Shown here: positions 8,362-22,075 of the stretch, piece after piece
Numbering within the stretch: the first letter of the stretch is position 1
Layout: each line of letters opens with the position of its first letter
From: Szabonella alba
GTDB taxonomy: Bacteria; Pseudomonadota; Alphaproteobacteria; Rhodobacterales; Rhodobacteraceae
NCBI RefSeq assembly: GCF_016765775.1
Contig: NZ_JAESVN010000002.1
Location: 372,001-436,000 of the forward strand
DNA: 64,000 nucleotides
Direction: 5' to 3'
Position numbers and translations under genes: made by a program
The notes under the pieces: generated by a model
Seen by the model: only the letters and a program-made list of their open reading frames with translations
Told to the model about the DNA's origin: nothing
Database searches by the model: none

Positions 8362-9404
<1,043 letters not shown>

Positions 9405-9410
9405 GCGCGG

Positions 9411-11564
9411 TTACAGCGTGCAGGACACGCAGCCCTGCACTTCGGTTCCCTCCAGCGCGGTCTGGCGCAGGCGGACGTAATAGATCGTCTTGATCCCTTT
9501 TTTCCAGGCCAGGATCTGCGCGCGGTTGATGTCGCGCGTCGTCGCCTCGGCCGGGAAGAACAGGGTCAGGCTCAGCCCCTGATCGACATGTTCGGTTGCC
9601 GCCGCATAGGTCTCGATCAGTGCCTCGGGCCCGATTTCATAGGCGTCGCGATAGTATTCGAGATTGTCATTGGTCATGAAGGGCGCGGGATAATAGACGC
9701 GGCCGATCTTGCCTTCCTTGCGGATCTCGACCTTTGAGACGATCGGATGGATCGAGGAGGTCGAGTTGTTGATATAGCTGATTGACCCCGTCGGCGGAAC
9801 GGCCTGAAGGTTGCGGTTGTAAAGCCCGTCCTTCATCACCGCATCCTTCAGCGCGGCCCAGTCCGCCCGGGTGGGCAATTCCACCCCGAAGCGCGCGAAC
9901 AGCGCCTGCACGGTGTCAGTCTCGGGCAGCCAGTCGCGGGCGGTGTATTTCTCAAAGAAGCTGCCATCGGCATATTTCGACCGCTCGAACCCGGCAAAGC
10001 TGCGCCCCGTCTCGCGCGCCAGTGCGTTGGAGGCGCGCAGCGCGTGATAGGCCACGGCGGCAAAATAGGCGCGGGTGAAATCCACGCCTTCCGCGCTGCC
10101 GTAATGGATGCGTTCGCGCGCCAGAAACCCGTGTAGGTTCATCTGACCCAGACCGACGGCATGGGCCTCATCATTGCCGCGCCGGATGGACGGAACAGAC
10201 TCGATGGACGACATTTCCGAAACGGCGGTCAGCGCCCGGATCGCCTGTTCCACGGTCGCGCCGAAATCCGGCCCGTCCATCGTGGCCGCGATATTCAGCG
10301 ACCCCAGATTGCAGGAAATATCCGTGCCCAGCCGGGCATAGCTCAGATCCTCGTTATATTCGCTGGCCTCATTGACCTGCAGGATTTCCGAACACAGGTT
10401 CGACATCGCGATGCGCCCGTCGATGGGGTTGGCGCGGTTCACCGTGTCCTCGAACATGATATAGGGATAGCCGGATTCGAACTGGATTTCGGCCAGCGTC
10501 TGGAAAAACTCCCGCGCGTTGATCTTCTTCTTGCGGATGCGCTTGTCGCCGACCATCTCGTCATATTTCTCGGAAACCGGAATCTCCGAGAAGGGAACGC
10601 CGTAGACCCGTTCCACATCATGCGGCGAAAACAGATACATATCCGCATTCCGCTTGGCCAGCTCAAAGGTCACATCGGGAATGACGACCCCGAGGCTCAG
10701 CGTCTTGATGCGGATCTTTTCATCGGCATTCTCGCGCTTGGTGTCCAGAAAGCGCAGGATGTCGGGGTGATGGGCGTTGAGGTAAACCGCCCCGGCCCCC
10801 TGCCGCGCGCCCAGCTGATTGGCATAGGAAAAGCTGTCTTCCAGCAGTTTCATCACCGGAATGACGCCCGAGGACTGGTTTTCAATGCCTTTGATCGGCG
10901 CGCCATGTTCGCGGATATTGGTCAGCATCAGTGCCACGCCACCGCCGCGCTTGGACAGTTGCAGCGAGGAATTGATCGCCCGGCCGATGGATTCCATATT
11001 GTCCTCGACCCGCAGCAGGAAGCAGGAAATCAGCTCTCCGCGCGACTGTTTCCCGGCGTTTAGGAAGGTCGGCGTCGCAGGCTGGAACCGGCCCGAAATG
11101 ATTTCCTCCATGAAGGCCATGGCCTGCGCCTGATCGCCGCGCGCCAGTGCCAGTGCCACCATCACGACGCGGTCCTCATAGCGTTCCAGATAGCGTTGCC
11201 CGTCGCGGGTTTTCAGCGTGTAGGAGGTGTAATACTTGAACGCACCAAGGAAGGTGGGGAAACGGAATTTCCGCGCATAGGCCGCATTCCAGATCCGGTG
11301 CAGGAAGTCGCGCGGATACTGATCCAGCACCGCCGCCTCGTAATAGCCTTCCTCGACCAGATAACCGAGTTTTTCATCAAGGCTGTGAAAGAACACGGTG
11401 TTCTGGTTCACATGGCTCAGGAAATACTGGCGCGCGGCCATGCGGTCGGCCTCGAACCGGATGCGCCCTTGATCGTCATAGAGGTTCAGCATCGCGTTCA
11501 GCGCATGGTGGTCCAGCGCGGGCGCGTCCTTGGTGCCCCTGTCCTTCAGGCCGTGGTCAAGCAT
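9411..11564 (-). CDS. nrdE: Class Ib ribonucleotide reductase, catalytic subunit NrdE
   Basis: 717 residues. It reduces ribonucleoside diphosphates to deoxy forms. There is no N-terminal ATP cone, as expected for class Ib. Landmarks are the cysteine in [14 protein letters not shown], the radical-site region [18 protein letters not shown], and the C-terminal redox pair in [10 protein letters not shown] that NrdH-type redoxins re-reduce. The ATG at 11564 overlaps the nrdI end by 19 nt. The match over the full length leaves little doubt; a class Ia NrdA would be longer and carry the cone. Confidence 0.96.
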
Positions 11565-11962
11565 TCCGTCCCCCAGAATTCATTCAGCCCGGAGCGGATC
11601 CGGGCAATATCGGTCTCACTGCCCGCCAGTTCAAAGCGGAAAAGCAGCGGAACAGTGCATTTACGGGCGATCACATCGCCCGCCATCGCGAAGGTCGCGC
11701 CGAAATTGCGGTTTCCCCCGGCAATCACACCGCGCAGCAGCGCGCGGCGGGCGGGGTCGTTCAGAAAGCGGATCACGGGTTTCGGGACCGCGCCGCGCCC
11801 CTCGCCATCGGCGAAAGTCGGGCAGATCAGCACATAGGGCTGGACGGGGCAGGGCATTTCCTCATCGGGACGGATCGGGATCCGCAGCGCTGGAACACCA
11901 AGCCGCGCAACCATGCGCGCGGTATTGCCCGAGGCCGATGAGAAATAGACCAGCCCGCCCAT
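11546..11962 (-). CDS. nrdI: Flavodoxin-like NrdI
   Basis: 138 residues. NrdI is the FMN protein that supplies the oxidant for assembling the Mn2-tyrosyl cofactor of NrdF. The phosphate-binding loop [13 protein letters not shown] and the loop [19 protein letters not shown] are family hallmarks. It sits between nrdH and nrdE as in classical nrdHIEF operons, 5 nt after the nrdH stop and overlapping nrdE. Confidence 0.93.
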
Positions 11963-11967
11963 TCCCG

Positions 11968-12189
11968 TCAGGCCAGACGGCCGATCATGTCAGGACGGAA
12001 ACCGGCCCAATGCGATTCACCCGCCACGACGACCGGCGCCTGACGATAGCCCAGCGAGGTGACCCGCTCCATCGCATCGGCATCTTCGGTCAGGTCGATG
12101 AGGCTGTAGACGATGCCCTTGGCATCCAGCGCGCGGGTGGTCGCGGTGCATTGAACGCAGGCGGGTTTGGAATAGACGGTGATGGTCAT
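11968..12189 (-). CDS. nrdH: NrdH-redoxin, glutaredoxin-like electron donor
   Basis: 73 residues from the ATG at 12189. The frame is open further upstream, but that part is GC-rich leader sequence without family similarity. The redox motif is C-V-Q-C in [17 protein letters not shown], followed by the conserved [10 protein letters not shown] and a C-terminal [10 protein letters not shown] segment. It reduces the NrdE C-terminal cysteines using thioredoxin reductase. First gene of nrdHIEF, about 110 nt downstream of a cobalamin riboswitch. Confidence 0.94.
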
Positions 12190-12298
12190 CGGCTCGGTCC
12201 CTCGGTTTATTGCGGGAACGGGTCCGGGTCCGGGCGAAGGCTGTTGCCCGGGACCCCGCCCCCATGCCCGCCGCATGGTTTCGGTCTTTCAGTGTCAG

Positions 12299-12475
12299 GG
12301 CCGGTCTCCTGGCTTGCGGGTCGATGCGCGACTGGCCTTCCCGGGCTTTCGCCCAGTGGTTTTCCAGCGTTGCTAACCGCCTACAGTTGCGGGGGCAGCT
12401 CCGGCATCGGATCAGGATCCGCACCGGATTCCCATTTCACCCCCGGGCTGCCCCGGAGGAACCATGACACCAGCA
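12299..12475 (-). promoter_or_regulatory. Cobalamin (B12) riboswitch controlling nrdHIEF
   Basis: Read on the minus strand, the segment shows the B12 riboswitch conserved blocks in order: GGTGTCATGGTTCC, GTGAAATGGGAATCCGGTG, the core GCTGCCCCCGCAACTGTAG, CCACTGGGCGAAAGCCCGG, GGGAAGGC, and the closing AAGCCAGGAGACCGGCC. It ends about 110 nt before nrdH. Such riboswitches normally switch genes off when adenosylcobalamin is plentiful. Control of a B12-independent reductase implies a B12-dependent class II enzyme (NrdJ) elsewhere in the genome. Confidence 0.95.
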
Positions 12476-12595
12476 TTGGTGGATTGTTGGCGGGGTATTG
12501 TCAATATGTGGTGGGCATAGATCGTCTCGAAACCGTGACCGCCTTGCACGGCGGTCACGGTCACAGGGCCGCGAAACGGTCGCCCGGGGGCTGCG

Positions 12596-13042
12596 TCATT
12601 TCAGGGTTTTCTCGAAATACACACGGTCAAACCCCGCCTCATGGCGGCGGTCCGTCTGCCGATATCCCAGCCGGGGATAGAGCAGCAGATTGCCGGTCAT
12701 CTTCGCATTGGTATAAAGCCGCACCGCGCAGAGGCCGGATTTCTGCGCGCGATCCTCGCAAAAGCGAATCAGCGCGCCGCCGATCCCGCGCCCCGCCGCC
12801 CGGGGCAGCACCGCGACGCTGTCCAGCAGCATTCCGTCCCCCTCGGGCCAAAAGAGGATGAAGCCGGTCAGATCGCCCGCCGCGTCCGTGGCGACATAGG
12901 CCTGACCGGCCGCGATGCGGGCGGTGAAATCCTCGGTCATCGGCGCGGGCGGCCGCCCGATCAGGGGAATATAGGGCGCGAATGCCGCCACCGCGCAGGC
13001 GCGGATCGCGGGTTCATCGCCTGCCACGGCCTGCCGGATCAT
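12596..13042 (-). CDS. GNAT-family N-acetyltransferase
   Basis: 148 residues from the ATG at 13042, which follows a GGGGGAAG site; an in-frame TTG at 13087 lacks one. The acetyl-CoA motif A is VAVLPRAAGRGIGGALIRFC (R-x-x-G-x-G/A), and the C-terminal YPRLGYRQTDRRHEAGFDRVYFEKTL is typical of small-molecule GNATs. Substrate unknown. It lies 59 nt after gbcB on the same strand, so it may share the B12-controlled transcript. Confidence 0.85.
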   Translation of the reverse strand: MIRQAVAGDEPAIRACAVAAFAPYIPLIGRPPAPMTEDFTARIAAGQAYVATDAAGDLTGFILFWPEGDGMLLDSVAVLPRAAGRGIGGALIRFCEDRAQKSGLCAVRLYTNAKMTGNLLLYPRLGYRQTDRRHEAGFDRVYFEKTLK

Positions 13043-13101
13043 CCGCTTCCCCCGTTCCAGTTCCGCCCGTCGCCGCAGCGCGTGCAACCGGCTGCGCGCC
13101 C

Positions 13102-14193
13102 TCAGACCTCGACCGCGACCTTGCCCAAGGGCTGCGAACAGCAGGCAAGGATATAGCCCTCGGCCACGTCCTCATCCGAGATGCCGCCATTATGGACCAT
13201 ATGCACCTCGCCCCCGGTCTTGCGGATCTTGCAGGTGCCGCACAGCCCGAAGGTGCAGCCCGAGGGGATATTCAGCCCCGAGCGTCGCGCGACGGCAAGG
13301 ATCGTTTCGGTTTCCATACAGGCGGTGGTAACGCCCGAGGCGCTGAAGGTGACCGAGGCGGCGGCTTCGGCATCGGGCGCGATATCGTCGATCACCGGGG
13401 CCTCGGCCTCGGTCCGCACCGGCGCGCCGAAGCTTTCCTGATGGTAATGCTCCATGTCATAGCCCAGCGAGACCAGCATCTCGCGTACCGCCTGCATGAA
13501 GGGTTCCGGACCGCAGCAGAACACCTCGCGTTCCAGATAGTCGGGGGCCATCAGCCCCAGCATGATCTGGCTCAGCCGGCCCTGATAGCCGTGCCATGAC
13601 TGAAAGGGGTCGGGCTCTTCGACCGTGAAGCGCAGTTTCAGCCCCGGAACCCGGTCGGCGAACTGCTCGATCCGTTTCTTCAGGATGATCTCGGAGGGGC
13701 GCCGCGCGGCATGGATGAAGGTGATGTCGGGCATGGTGCCCGAATCCCAGGCCCAGGTCGTCATCGACATCATCGGCGTGATGCCCGACCCGGCCGAGAT
13801 GAACAGGTATTTCGCCGAAGGATGCCGGTGCGAACTGAAGATCCCCGAAGGGCCGAAGGCCCGGATCCGCATACCCGGTTTCAGATGATCCAGCATCCAG
13901 CGTGTGCCGATACTGTCGGCCTGCGCCTTGACCGTGACTGAAATCGACAGGGGGCGAGAGGGGCTGGACGAAATCGTATAGGTGCGCTGCACATTGCCCG
14001 TCGCGCCGCGATGCGGTGCAACGGGCAGGTCCAGCGTCACGAATTGCCCCGGCTGATAGTCGAACCACGCGCCCGAGGGCGCGCGGAAGGTGAAGGTCGC
14101 GCAATCGGCAGTTTCCGGCACGACCATGGCGCATTCCAGGTCTTCACTGTCCTGCCAGGGTTGCGCCGACCAGTTGTTCATGCGGGCGGTCAT
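13102..14193 (-). CDS. gbcB: Flavin/ferredoxin reductase component of glycine-betaine-type oxygenase
   Basis: About 363 residues. It passes electrons from NAD(P)H through FAD and a 2Fe-2S centre to the Rieske oxygenase. The N-terminal part is a ferredoxin-reductase FAD domain (GQFVTLDLP, RTYTISSSPS). The middle is the nucleotide domain (FISAGSGITPMMSM). The C-terminus is a plant-type ferredoxin with PSGCTFGLCGTC and a later ACCSQP cysteine. The ATG at 14193 is 4 nt after the gbcA stop; another ATG lies at 14181. The pairing with a GbcA-like oxygenase is the main reason for the name. Confidence 0.85.
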   Translation of the reverse strand: MTARMNNWSAQPWQDSEDLECAMVVPETADCATFTFRAPSGAWFDYQPGQFVTLDLPVAPHRGATGNVQRTYTISSSPSRPLSISVTVKAQADSIGTRWMLDHLKPGMRIRAFGPSGIFSSHRHPSAKYLFISAGSGITPMMSMTTWAWDSGTMPDITFIHAARRPSEIILKKRIEQFADRVPGLKLRFTVEEPDPFQSWHGYQGRLSQIMLGLMAPDYLEREVFCCGPEPFMQAVREMLVSLGYDMEHYHQESFGAPVRTEAEAPVIDDIAPDAEAAASVTFSASGVTTACMETETILAVARRSGLNIPSGCTFGLCGTCKIRKTGGEVHMVHNGGISDEDVAEGYILACCSQPLGKVAVEV

Positions 14194-14197
14194 CGCG

Positions 14198-15436
14198 CTA
14201 TTCCGCTGCCAGCGCGGGTTGCGGCGCAAGGCGGCGCTGCATCGTGTCGCAATACCAGTCGATGAACTGGATCACGCCCTCTTCCTGCAGCGGCGAGTAG
14301 GGGCCGGGTTCATAGGCCGGGGACCGGATGCCGATCTGGTTTTCCTCGACCACCTGACGATCTTCGTCATTGGTGGTCAGCCAGACCTCGGTCAGGCGGT
14401 TCAGGTCGTAATCCACCCCCTCGACCGCGTCCTTGTGAACCAGCCATGTCGTGCGCACCTCGGTTTCCGTCGCGCTGATCGGCAGGATGCGGAAGGTGAT
14501 CGCGTGATCAGCCAGAAAATGGTTCCAGGTGTTGGGATAGTGATACATCAACAGGCTGCCCGCATCGTCAAAGGGCATCTTACCCATGCGGCGGGCCACG
14601 GCGGCGCGGCTGTCCATCGTGTAGCTTTCGGCATTGTTCAGCAGCGGGATCCGCGCCAGCCGCCACTGGAAATCCGGCGCATTGACGAAACGCGAGGGCA
14701 GGCCTGCCGCCTCACAGCGCTGCCAATGGGCAAGGATCTCGGGGCTGGCGGAATCGGGGCCATCCATCGCGGCGAATTTCGGATTGTCCGAGAAGGTCCG
14801 GCACAGCGAGGGGTGCGCGCCGCCGCAGTGATAGCATTCGCGGTTGTTCTCCATCACCAGTTTCCAGTTGCCCTTCTCGATGATGGTCGAGGTGAAGGCC
14901 ACTTTCGCCTCGGCCAGTTCCGAAGGTGCAAGGAAGGGTGCGGCGGTGCGGGCCAGATCGGCAATCGGGGGCGGCACATCGGCAAGGCAGATATAGACTA
15001 GCCCGCCCAGATCGACGCAATGCACCTTTTTCAGCCCATGCGCCGAGGCGTCGAAATCGGGGCCCATGTCACGCGCCCAGACCAGTTTTCCGTCAAGATC
15101 ATAGGTCCATTGGTGATAGGGGCAGACCAGTTTCGGCGCCGATCCGGTCGCCTTGGCGCACAGCCGCTGGCCGCGATGGCGGCAGACATTGTGAAAGGCG
15201 CGGATCCGCCCGTCACTGCCGCGCACCACGATCACCGGATAATCCCCGATCTGCAGCGTGGCAAAGGCGCCCTGTTTCGGCAATTCGCAGGCGGGCACGG
15301 CAAACAGCCATTCCTTCAGCCAGATCGCATCAAGATCAGCCTGAAGTGTGGCGTGATCGCAGTAAAGGTCCCGGGTCAGCGCATGGCCCGGCCTGCGGTT
15401 CTGGAACTGGTCGCGGATTTCGTTCTGGCTCAGCAT
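14198..15436 (-). CDS. gbcA: Rieske oxygenase, glycine betaine demethylase type
   Basis: 412 residues from the ATG at 15436, preceded by a GAGG site; the longer open frame runs through the leader. The Rieske centre is CRHRGQRLC...CPYH (C-x-H-x17-C-x2-H) at about residues 80-105. The mononuclear iron region is ENNRECYHCGGAHPSL, matching the N-x-x-E-x-Y-H-C-x4-H form of GbcA and stachydrine demethylases. Predicted reaction: oxidative N-demethylation of glycine betaine to dimethylglycine with formaldehyde release. A related quaternary amine such as proline betaine or carnitine is possible. It has a B12 riboswitch upstream, which is unexpected for this family. Confidence 0.85.
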   Translation of the reverse strand: MLSQNEIRDQFQNRRPGHALTRDLYCDHATLQADLDAIWLKEWLFAVPACELPKQGAFATLQIGDYPVIVVRGSDGRIRAFHNVCRHRGQRLCAKATGSAPKLVCPYHQWTYDLDGKLVWARDMGPDFDASAHGLKKVHCVDLGGLVYICLADVPPPIADLARTAAPFLAPSELAEAKVAFTSTIIEKGNWKLVMENNRECYHCGGAHPSLCRTFSDNPKFAAMDGPDSASPEILAHWQRCEAAGLPSRFVNAPDFQWRLARIPLLNNAESYTMDSRAAVARRMGKMPFDDAGSLLMYHYPNTWNHFLADHAITFRILPISATETEVRTTWLVHKDAVEGVDYDLNRLTEVWLTTNDEDRQVVEENQIGIRSPAYEPGPYSPLQEEGVIQFIDWYCDTMQRRLAPQPALAAE

Positions 15437-15450
15437 TCTGACCTCGCTTT

Positions 15451-15472
15451 GCCCATGCCTCCCCGCATGGGC
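15451..15472 (-). promoter_or_regulatory. Hairpin just upstream of gbcA, candidate riboswitch expression platform
   Basis: GCCCATGC and GCATGGGC form an 8-bp perfect stem with a 6-base loop that, on the minus strand, reads GGGGAG. It ends 15 nt before the gbcA ATG and abuts its GAGG ribosome site. It lacks a T tract, so translational rather than terminator-type control is the more likely role. Inference from position only. Confidence 0.4.
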
Positions 15473-15562
15473 GACTGGTGGGGTGCGGTGGTCGGGGGGC
15501 CCTGCGCAACCGGGGATGGCCCCAACCCGCAAGACCGCCCGCCTGCCGCGGTTCGGCTCGTC

Positions 15563-15735
15563 CTGCAGGGCTGGTTTCCGGGCTCAGGGGCGGGCCATTG
15601 CGGCCCCGGTCCGACACCTTCCCGGGGGCGGACCCCCAGTGGTTCCTGTCGGGCCGCAATCCCTTTACCGTTGCGGGGGCAGCGCCGGTCTTGCACCGGC
15701 TTCCCAATTCTCCGCTGTCACCAGCGGCACCTTGC
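15563..15735 (-). promoter_or_regulatory. Cobalamin (B12) riboswitch upstream of gbcAB
   Basis: On the minus strand the blocks run GGTGCCGCTGGTGAC, TTGGGAAGCCGGTGC, the core GCGCTGCCCCCGCAACGG, AACCACTGGGGG, CCCGGGAAGGTG, and the closing GAGCCCGGAAACCAGCC. Order and spacing match the cobalamin riboswitch, with AAACCAG in place of GAGACC in the last block, a common variant. About 127 nt separate it from the gbcA start. No B12 gene is nearby, so the controlled operon is the oxygenase pair (and perhaps the acetyltransferase). Confidence 0.92.
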
Positions 15736-15858
15736 AGGGGCAAGCTATGCCAAGGCTCTCGCGCATCGCGCGAGAATGCCGACCTGACAGGATTGATTTG
15801 CGACCTGCCCGATAATGGCCGGGACGGGTTGCCCGGCCCGGGGCCAGTCAGGTTCTGG

Positions 15859-17124
15859 TCAGGTTCCGGTCCGGGCCTTGGGCGGCGTCGCGCGGGCCTT
15901 TTCCGCCGCTGCCGCCGCCTTGGCCTGCGCGGCGGTTTCCTGTGCTTCGCGGTCCTCGTCGAATTCCGGCAATCCGTCGCGCGAAATCAGGATCGCGACC
16001 GGCCTTGCGGCGGGGATATGGGTGCAGACGATCATCGTGGCCACAAGGACCGGCACCGCCAGAAAGGCACCGGGCACGCCCCAGACCAGGCTCCAGAATG
16101 CCAGCGAGATGATGATCCCGAAGGCCGAGATGCGCAGCGTCCGGCCCATCAGCATCGGGTCGATCACCGATCCCAGCAGGAATTGGGTGGAGGAGACCAG
16201 CACCAGCAGCAGCAGCGCAAAACCGGGTTCGGGCACCTGTAGATAGCCGACCAGCACCACGATCAGCGTCGCGATGATCGACCCGATTGAGGGGATATAG
16301 TTCAGAACAAAGGTCAGGATCGCCATGGAGACTGCGAATTCCAGCCCGAAACCCATCATGATCGCATAGACCGCCAGCCCGGTCACCGTGCTGACACCGG
16401 TCTTCACCACCAGATAGCGGTTCACCCGGCGGATGATCGAATTGATGATCAGCCGCACCCGCTGCGCGCTGACCGGGTCGCCCATCAGCTTTTCCAGCTT
16501 GGTGTTGAACCACAGCCGTTCGCCGAACAGGAAGCCCACGAACAGGATCACCAGTGTCGTGGCCGACAGCAGGTTGCCCGCCTGCCCGGCAGCGGCGCGC
16601 AGATAGCCCGACAGATCGACCGACCGGATCGAGGCCGCGACCGCCGCCTCGGTATCCGGGCCCATATAGGCGAACAGCCCGGCAATGGCCGAGATTGCCT
16701 GATCGGTAAAGGCAACGGCGTTGGTGACGACGGTATTGACCTGCGACAGGATGAACCCCGCCAGCGTCAGCAGGAAAGCCGCGATCAGCGCGAAGGCCAC
16801 AAGCGAGGCCAGCCAGTTGGTGATCCGCCATGACCCGATCCGCAGGCGGGAGATCGAGCCGATCACATCGGTGGTCAGCGAGAACAGCATGATCGCGAAA
16901 ATCAGCGAGGTCAGGATGAAGCGGGCCTGTACCAGAACGACCAGAATCACGCCAAAGGCGATGATCCCCAGAAACCATGTCTGCAGGCTGTAGCGGCCTC
17001 GGGCCAGCGGACGCAGTGGCGTCGGACCTGAAATCACCGGACGGCCCGACGCGGCAGGCTGGACGGCAGCGCCCGCGGGGCGGCCTCCGGGCAGGGTCTC
17101 TGACGTTTCAGTATCCAAGCGCAT
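15859..17124 (-). CDS. AI-2E family transporter (PerM/TqsA-like membrane protein)
   Basis: 421 residues from the ATG at 17124 (an ATG at 17139 is the alternative). The N-terminal 45 residues are polar and Pro/Ala-rich. Then come about eight membrane spans in the family pattern: two spans, a long soluble loop (SQVNTVVTNAVAFTDQ...), then VKTGVSTVTGLAVYAIMMGFGLEFA and FVLNYIPSIGSIIATL, which is the family signature. The C-terminus is a charged Ala/Lys tail. Members export diverse small molecules or ions; substrate unknown. It lies downstream of secDF on the same strand after a 194-nt gap. Confidence 0.9.
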   Translation of the reverse strand: MRLDTETSETLPGGRPAGAAVQPAASGRPVISGPTPLRPLARGRYSLQTWFLGIIAFGVILVVLVQARFILTSLIFAIMLFSLTTDVIGSISRLRIGSWRITNWLASLVAFALIAAFLLTLAGFILSQVNTVVTNAVAFTDQAISAIAGLFAYMGPDTEAAVAASIRSVDLSGYLRAAAGQAGNLLSATTLVILFVGFLFGERLWFNTKLEKLMGDPVSAQRVRLIINSIIRRVNRYLVVKTGVSTVTGLAVYAIMMGFGLEFAVSMAILTFVLNYIPSIGSIIATLIVVLVGYLQVPEPGFALLLLVLVSSTQFLLGSVIDPMLMGRTLRISAFGIIISLAFWSLVWGVPGAFLAVPVLVATMIVCTHIPAARPVAILISRDGLPEFDEDREAQETAAQAKAAAAAEKARATPPKARTGT

Positions 17125-21761: not shown

Positions 21762-22075
21762 TGTGACAGGTCCGGACAGGTCGGGCCGCCCCCGTCATCG
21801 CCCTGTGCGGCGGTCAGGGGGAAACCCGATGCGGTCCGACATCACAACACCATGTTGCCAGAGGGGCCCGGCCCGCAGGTGAAAGGTGGCGATGCGCCTG
21901 CAGGGATCAAGCCGGACCGGATGAATTATTTTTGCCGCCTTCCCCGCGCGGCCATCCTTGCCGGACAAGGCCCCCGCATCGCCCGCAACCCGGGCCCGGT
22001 TTGCCCGACTGCGCGCCGCAGCACATGGCATGCGGGCGACATCCGGGCAAATCATCGACCTCCTCGCGGAATTTC
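21762..22075. other. Divergent intergenic region, no gene seen
   Basis: Lies between the small membrane protein (minus) and the iron-binding protein (plus). Short frames here have no ribosome site or family resemblance. It contains an AT-rich patch at about 21921-21931 that is unusual for the neighbourhood and could be part of the minus-strand promoter. Confidence 0.45.

Follow-up and report, generated by a model that had tools for sequence, protein, structure and literature searches.

Two cobalamin riboswitches ahead of nrdHIEF and a Rieske betaine-demethylase-type operon in Szabonella alba: a predicted B12-sparing locus

Introduction

Control of ribonucleotide reductase (nrd) genes by cobalamin (vitamin B12) riboswitches occurs in other bacteria, and these riboswitches, once bound, usually repress. 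Here we describe a locus in a 64,000-nucleotide stretch of the Szabonella alba genome (RefSeq assembly GCF_016765775.1, contig NZ_JAESVN010000002.1, positions 372,001 to 436,000 of the forward strand; the whole stretch is called the window below), in which one cobalamin riboswitch precedes nrdHIEF, the operon of a class Ib ribonucleotide reductase, and a second precedes the genes of a Rieske non-haem iron oxygenase of the betaine-demethylase kind and its reductase. We consider it probable that the locus is a B12-sparing module, in which cobalamin represses both operons while B12-dependent enzymes do the same work. The related systems in regulatory terms are the B12-independent isozymes under cobalamin riboswitches (metE/metH and nrd), where an aptamer of the RF00174 type lies before an enzyme that replaces a B12-dependent one; in the metE/metH case, as tested in PMC9600662, the presence of a usable corrinoid makes the riboswitch shut down the enzyme that needs no B12. 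The Rieske pair would depart from this pattern, since it is not an isozyme: it would give osmolyte breakdown an O2-dependent bypass with a different chemistry.

Among marine osmolytes glycine betaine is abundant. In Ruegeria pomeroyi, a member of the same bacterial order as S. alba, it is reportedly demethylated by the MtgBCD system: according to PMC12478193 (2025), mutants show that use of glycine betaine requires both MtgC and MtgD, and the authors draw a cobalamin need of the system from homology and proteomics. MtgBCD(E) shares betaine demethylation with the Rieske pair but works through a corrinoid protein, with folate or homocysteine as acceptor of the methyl group. The same paper sets little store by gbcAB, whose occurrence among marine bacteria it regards as limited, and gives formaldehyde as the GbcAB product; in its main text the word 'riboswitch' occurs once, in a reference on a glycine riboswitch. 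Since MtgBCD, taken to need B12, is reported to demethylate glycine betaine (PMC12478193), the Rieske pair could plausibly act as a bypass that does without B12. A further B12-independent, O2-dependent replacement is the methionine synthase MesD/MesX, as described in PMC7857596. No report of a cobalamin riboswitch before Rieske or betaine demethylase genes was found among open-licence papers and, as far as seen, the principle is already known while the target is new.

Results

Two complete riboswitches on one strand

A cmscan search of the window returned two matches to RF00174, both on the minus strand, both covering the whole model (positions 1-189) and both far above the curators' gathering score of 31.5, at 126.7 bits on the nrdHIEF side and 109.8 bits on the Rieske side; there was no third match in the window. 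Together with their spacing the two aptamers take up 3,468 bases, and each lies a short way before its operon, 92 nt from nrdH and 115 nt from the oxygenase gene (Table 1). An earlier note on this DNA, made by a model from the letters and a list of open reading frames (ORFs), had claimed two complete cobalamin riboswitches within 3.5 kb of one strand, each ahead of an operon free of B12 synthesis and transport genes, the first of them a class Ib nrdHIEF operon. All of this is borne out: neither element falls below the threshold, NrdH, NrdI, NrdE and NrdF each exceed their curated cut-offs so that the operon is complete, and no gene of either operon matched a B12 synthesis or transport family in Pfam or NCBIfam.

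An alignment of 31 aptamers, the S. alba Rieske element and those of 30 relatives (the marginal matches at loci L041 and L093 being excluded), shows long invariant core blocks. Of the 43 pairs that RNAalifold predicts from it, 22 carry one or more double-sided compensatory changes, as expected of a conserved structure; this is a count of pairs, not of events, and such changes are common to related sequences. Retention of the riboswitch in relatives at about 60-78% protein identity, together with these compensated pairs, argues that the match before the oxygenase gene is more than chance, and the element is predicted to bind cobalamin and to control the gene downstream.

B12-dependent counterparts in the same genome

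S. alba also encodes B12-dependent counterparts for both operons. A search for nrdJ, suggested in the earlier note, found two NrdJ proteins over the cut-offs (TIGR02504, 592.8 bits against 399.95; NF005736, 2210.9 against 1737), and of the three reductase genes found, nrdE alone encodes a class I large subunit. The accompanying search for corrinoid-dependent betaine methyltransferases gave four MttB-family proteins over the Pfam cut-off. For three of these the best Protein Data Bank (PDB) chain is 4yyc ('putative trimethylamine methyltransferase'), with 9yce among the next, and for the fourth it is 9yce (glycine betaine methyltransferase). There is, in addition, a corrinoid protein that we call MtgC-like because it is 81% identical to a Roseibium protein from a cluster of the composition described in PMC12478193 and misses the MtgC cut-offs, and a protein of the betaine-homocysteine methyltransferase (BHMT) type that resembles MtgE (609.8 bits against 338). 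A stretch of about 7 kb (L225 11629-18877) holds the genes for these two together with one class II nrdJ. Of the B12 synthesis genes CobN (PF02514) was searched for, with no match in the genome, and the MetH activation domain (PF02965) gave none either; B12 auxotrophy of the host is only likely.

The window holds two of six RF00174 matches in the genome. Of the four elsewhere, one precedes a btuB-like receptor gene (293 bits against a cut-off of 600) followed by ABC transporter genes, one precedes a gene whose product has periplasmic-binding and FecCD parts, and the other two stand in tandem on contig C50. There, a 103.6-bit riboswitch is followed by an ORF of 194 amino acids (L015 6972-7556, minus strand) that has no Pfam or NCBIfam match, and then by the second riboswitch, a DctM remnant and queH. 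QueH is B12-free and QueG, which is encoded elsewhere in the genome, is B12-dependent. We did not accept QueH as a third clean B12-sparing pair: its gene lies on the same strand 451 nt after the riboswitch, but the C-terminal DctM remnant stands between, and the QueH marker matched nowhere in the DNA (up to 3.6 kb) that follows the 106 riboswitches found in 29 relatives. As a further riboswitch-controlled B12-free enzyme QueH is suggestive only.

Recurrence before related Rieske genes

Recurrence was assessed in 80 related Rieske loci of named genomes; a search within the genus gave only the S. alba genome. In at least 29 of the 80 an RF00174 match that passes the gathering score stands immediately before the gene, in the same orientation, and 27 of these score 80 bits or more. 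The 29 are made up of 10 of the first 30 loci, at least 17 of the other 50 from the genome scan and, from scans of single loci within those 50, L089 (82.3 bits) and L093 (32.0 bits, partial). For the first 30 loci 29 genomes were scanned whole; L060, scanned as a single locus, has no riboswitch. Genome places were assigned to loci by coordinate arithmetic, with checks by marker matches in 10, locus scans in 11 and alignment of 27. Two of eight plasmid loci (Gemmobacter fulvus and Cereibacter azotoformans) also have the upstream riboswitch, 937 plasmid records having matched and 9 of the 40 listed having been opened.

The distribution follows the protein phylogeny. On a maximum-likelihood tree of 89 Rieske proteins, in which the truncated protein of L090 (144 amino acids) was retained, the riboswitch label (32 rows, two of them marginal) requires 9 changes against 26.6 when shuffled. 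Thirteen riboswitched rows form one group, where the S. alba protein stands with Gemmobacter, Cypionkella and Rhodobacter relatives, and 18 form a second with Ruegeria, Phaeobacter, Sulfitobacter, Shimia and Roseibium; the remaining row, from Mesorhizobium, sits on a long branch.

Further RNA elements were seen around these loci. In Rhodobacter sp. TJ_12 four cobalamin riboswitches (one marginal) lie on one strand in about 8.3 kb around the Rieske gene (L041 790-9121). A thiamine pyrophosphate (TPP) riboswitch of 72 bits faces away from the riboswitched Rieske operon of Pseudogemmobacter hezensis (L039 4402-4508, minus strand), and a SECIS_3 selenocysteine element of 80.4 bits lies near the Rieske locus of Paracoccus sp. 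MKU1 (L050 8062-8120, plus strand).

Identity of the Rieske pair

The earlier note had named the second operon gbcAB, and of this the betaine-demethylase kind stands and the specific name does not. GbcA and GbcB are the best NCBIfam models for the two proteins, near full length, and the oxygenase gene is the only GbcA-model match in the genome; unlike the GbcAB glycine betaine monooxygenase, however, both proteins miss the curated equivalog cut-offs (NF058607, 498.6 against 670 for the oxygenase; NF058606, 372.9 against 500 for the reductase). The ligand residues C85, H87, C105, H108, H203 and H208, assigned from what we take to be the Rieske CxH...CxxH ligands and catalytic histidines, are present in all 88 aligned rows, an alignment that excludes the truncated L090 protein; the Pfam domains of the oxygenase also score over their cut-offs.

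The nearest PDB chains are 3n0q and then 3vca and 4qup (581 bits each), the latter two of which we take to be the stachydrine demethylase Stc2. Over its full length the oxygenase is 59.5% identical to a Sinorhizobium enzyme whose gene adjoins stc4 and stc3, and which we treat as Stc2. As in the window, the gene of a reductase lies alongside; the S. meliloti locus examined differs in having no riboswitch. This putative Stc2 scores 494.6 bits on the GbcA model, as the window oxygenase does. Because the GbcA and GbcB cut-offs are missed and the putative Stc2 scores alike, the sequence places the pair with the betaine demethylases without naming its substrate, for which glycine betaine, proline betaine and other betaines are candidates.

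Activity on proline betaine, which the 59.5% identity suggests the oxygenase may have, opens a narrower form of the B12-sparing explanation, whose odds overlap with those of the broader one: the enzyme would be a proline betaine (stachydrine) demethylase related to Stc2, and B12 control would replace a proline-betaine corrinoid methyltransferase, not a glycine-betaine one. The matches to 3vca and 4qup and the equal GbcA-model scores agree with this, as does the tree, where the Stc2 row falls inside the larger group together with riboswitched roseobacter enzymes, while the mtgC-mtgD and mtgE-metH neighbours described below point to a glycine betaine and methionine system; the PDB matches of the four MttB proteins do not decide between the two substrates. 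We regard this form as possible, but would not favour it.

Chain 3n0q, which presumably comes from Ruegeria sp. TM1040, is identical over 408 residues to a TM1040 protein whose gene lies behind a 109.7-bit RF00174 riboswitch. Its deposition title names only a putative aromatic-ring hydroxylating dioxygenase, and it appears from the sequence to be a riboswitched Rieske demethylase of the present kind.

Neighbouring genes in relatives

Marker proteins were searched in the flanks (up to about 6 kb) of 88 loci. Parts of nrdHIEF lie near the Rieske gene in nine, with layouts that are variously same-strand, divergent or convergent; four loci have mtgE together with metH, two have mtgC together with mtgD, and four have an MttB gene. 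By our own arithmetic a given operon should lie within 5 kb of a given gene in about 0.25% of 4-Mb genomes, so that the nrd count is far above chance, even with one layout common to five Paracoccus loci. Marivivens niveibacter (L099) has nrdHIEF pointing away from the Rieske operon, the riboswitches of the two standing back-to-back. One 17-kb contig of the metagenome-assembled genome UBA996 carries three riboswitches on one strand, the first followed about 1.2 kb on by a BtuF-like match, the second preceding Rieske-reductase-mtgE-metH and the third preceding nrdH-nrdI-metE-like-nrdE-nrdF; in a riboswitched nrd operon the gene of a MetE-like catalytic-domain protein (PF01717, 57.4 bits against 21) separates nrdI from nrdE (L227 3205-4449, minus strand). 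Two Roseibium genomes have a riboswitched Rieske operon that diverges from a cluster encoding a B12-binding protein, a DUF1638 protein and a pterin-binding protein, which, by its predicted proteins, fits the mtgC and mtgD parts as described in PMC12478193. An ORF of 299 amino acids in that cluster was considered as MetF, had no Pfam match and was not counted. With two NrdJ, four MttB-family and one MtgC-like protein in S. alba and the pairing recurring in relatives, the theme put forward earlier, replacement of B12-dependent reactions, is well supported.

This neighbourhood could also be read in terms of one-carbon supply. When B12 is short, methyl-folate would be trapped, and oxidative demethylation would supply the synthesis of nucleotides and methionine with formaldehyde, then with usable folate units and with glycine. 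Such a role would suit the nrdHIEF, mtgE, metH and metE-like genes near by and the formaldehyde stated as the GbcAB product (PMC12478193), but sequence cannot tell it apart from plain sparing and, besides mtgD and metH, no recurring folate gene was found among the markers tested; we hold it to be unlikely.

Other riboswitch targets in relatives

The DNA behind all 106 RF00174 matches of 29 genomes was compared with marker proteins, a few regions being shortened by contig ends. Ten riboswitches precede the Rieske pair, four nrdHIEF (G001, G003, G017 and G024) and 13 btuB-like genes; the remainder precede other genes, several of them for B12 or cobalt transport or synthesis (CbtA and CobB/CobQ-like among the examples), or are unclassified. 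One of the 106, of 141.3 bits, lies directly before a MesX-MesD pair (L143 378-2414, plus strand) in P. hezensis, the genome of L039, whereas the MesD/MesX pair of S. alba has no riboswitch nearby. Four further genomes with a riboswitched Rieske gene have nrdHIEF behind three of 20 riboswitches examined, out of 24 non-Rieske riboswitches counted. Among the genomes seen, both operons are riboswitched in S. alba and in G003, G037, G040, G057 and G064; the marine laboratory strain Shimia marina is an instance of this arrangement. In UBA996 a gene with a BLUF photoreceptor domain (73.5 bits) lies directly behind a cobalamin riboswitch (L130 2456-3592, minus strand).

The many B12 and cobalt genes on this list raise the question of whether the Rieske pair itself acts in corrinoid metabolism, for example on the corrin ring, the lower ligand or in salvage, and carries its riboswitch as many B12 genes do. 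The four riboswitches around the L041 gene would agree, as would L064, L071 and L107, which by eye, from ORF starts, are apparently near B12 or cobalt transport genes. The family, however, is that of betaine demethylases, S. alba keeps the pair yet has no CobN match, the enzyme lacks a riboswitch in many relatives, and B12-using and B12-replacing enzymes recur as its neighbours; such a role is thus very improbable.

The leader and the remaining genes of the locus

The leader between the Rieske aptamer and the start codon contains a perfect 8-bp hairpin (15451-15472) directly before a GAGG ribosome-binding-like sequence. Its loop, GGGGAG, is also present in L026 and L027, and the arrangement would fit control of translation. 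An intrinsic terminator was dropped as the platform, since a terminator scan found none on the coding strand in 12100-16000, and the leader probably does not act through one. A kissing loop between L5 and L13 was tried on 32 leaders (30 relatives and the two of S. alba, with L041 and L093 excluded) with 200 shuffles. In 20 of the 32 the excised stretch crossed neighbouring helices, not L5, which left 12 informative; only L039 beat all 200 shuffles, the other 11 being unremarkable (the smallest share of shuffles doing as well was 0.09, in three). This gives an L5 kissing partner no general support as the platform.

Absent from the earlier note is a GNAT acetyltransferase ORF that sits between the reductase gene and the nrd riboswitch (Table 1). 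Elsewhere in the window, a terC RNA motif (RF03067, 58.4 bits against a cut-off of 39.9) at 21827-21879 on the minus strand lies upstream of a small ORF and what appears by eye to be a sodium/calcium exchanger gene on the same strand.

Table 1 Features of the two operons and their leaders, in window positions
Feature	Position	Strand	Basis
Cobalamin riboswitch aptamer, nrdHIEF side	12282..12481	-	RF00174, 126.7 bits, E 1.8e-31, full model
nrdH, glutaredoxin-like	11968..12189	-	TIGR02194, 100.1 against cut-off 85.75
nrdI, flavodoxin	11546..11962	-	TIGR00333, 138.8 against 74.65
nrdE, class Ib reductase large subunit	9411..11564	-	TIGR04170, 1210.1 against 750
nrdF, class Ib reductase small subunit	8362..9336	-	TIGR04171, 473.1 against 355
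Cobalamin riboswitch aptamer, Rieske oxygenase operon side	15552..15749	-	RF00174, 109.8 bits, E 1.3e-26, full model
5' leader, from the aptamer to the start codon; presumed expression platform	15437..15551	-	Sequence, fold and terminator scan; function predicted
Rieske non-haem iron oxygenase, betaine-demethylase kind (GbcA/Stc2-like), 412 amino acids	14198..15436	-	Pfam Rieske and Ring_hydroxyl_A; GbcA model 498.6 bits, below 670
Reductase partner with FAD, NAD and 2Fe-2S domains	13102..14193	-	Pfam; GbcB model 372.9 bits, below 500
GNAT acetyltransferase ORF, perhaps transcribed together with the Rieske operon	12596..13042 (ORF 12596-13087, ATG 13042)	-	Pfam Acetyltransf_7/1; position

Discussion

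The two aptamers, the enzyme classes behind them, the B12-dependent counterparts in the same genome and the recurrence in relatives are observed, and we propose the following mechanism. When cobalamin is plentiful it would bind both leader RNAs and turn off nrdHIEF and the Rieske-reductase operon; NrdJ would then supply deoxyribonucleotides, while methyltransferases of the MttB/MtgB type and the MtgC-like corrinoid protein would demethylate betaine. When cobalamin is short the RNAs would be left unbound and both operons expressed, so that NrdHIEF would supply deoxyribonucleotides and the Rieske oxygenase would take a methyl group off a betaine with O2 and NAD(P)H, releasing formaldehyde with no transfer to a corrinoid protein. 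The repression logic is proposed for both reactions by analogy with metE/metH (PMC9600662). We infer the direction of control in this way; the substrate and the action of the leader are likewise inferred parts of the explanation.

Several observations weigh against the B12-sparing explanation. Besides the missed GbcA and GbcB cut-offs and the L5 test, in which no kissing partner was shown, the MtgC-like protein is under the NCBI MtgC cut-offs (192.9 against 370 for NF047996; 168 against 310 for NF047995), and the genome-wide searches for NrdJ, MttB and MtgC covered S. alba only. Two of the 29 riboswitch matches are marginal (L041, 31.8 bits; L093, 32.0 bits), and no riboswitch over the threshold was found in 51 of the 80 loci among the matches listed, the locus scans and the motif scan. 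For the 31 such loci of the second set, L072, L073, L077 and L090 were scanned singly and 27 rest on the matches listed and the motif scan, which at L051 covered only 363 upstream bases. The nearest relative, L034 (80% identity), has none up to E 5, and the riboswitch is missing from every row of a Paracoccus tree group of 15 (12 of the 80 loci and three plasmid loci). In five of these Paracoccus rows (L046, L047, L052, L053 and L055) nrdHIEF adjoins the Rieske operon, divergently, and a degenerate riboswitch was ruled out there, with no match up to E 5. The neighbours, moreover, are not confined to riboswitched loci, the riboswitched share being 4/9 for nrd, 2/4 for mtgE-metH, 2/2 for mtgC-mtgD and 1/4 for MttB, and the nrd operon beside L039 has no riboswitch of its own. 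Together, the 51 loci and the Paracoccus group imply that riboswitch control is not essential to the enzyme.

The B12-sparing explanation may extend beyond S. alba. We would give about even chances to the proposal that, across much of the Rhodobacterales, B12 supply picks the betaine route through the riboswitch: in its presence methyl groups would pass by way of a corrinoid to folate and methionine, and in its absence an O2-dependent Rieske oxygenase would release them as formaldehyde. If true, the Rieske pair would represent a class of cobalamin riboswitch target that has so far gone undescribed, in which a chemically unrelated catabolic bypass takes the place of an isozyme, and B12 limitation would alter both the route of demethylation and its one-carbon product. 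If many such bacteria carry a Rieske demethylase that comes on only when B12 is absent, experiments in B12-replete conditions would miss it. The limitation of B12 would, in that case, be linked to what becomes of the carbon and nitrogen of marine glycine betaine.

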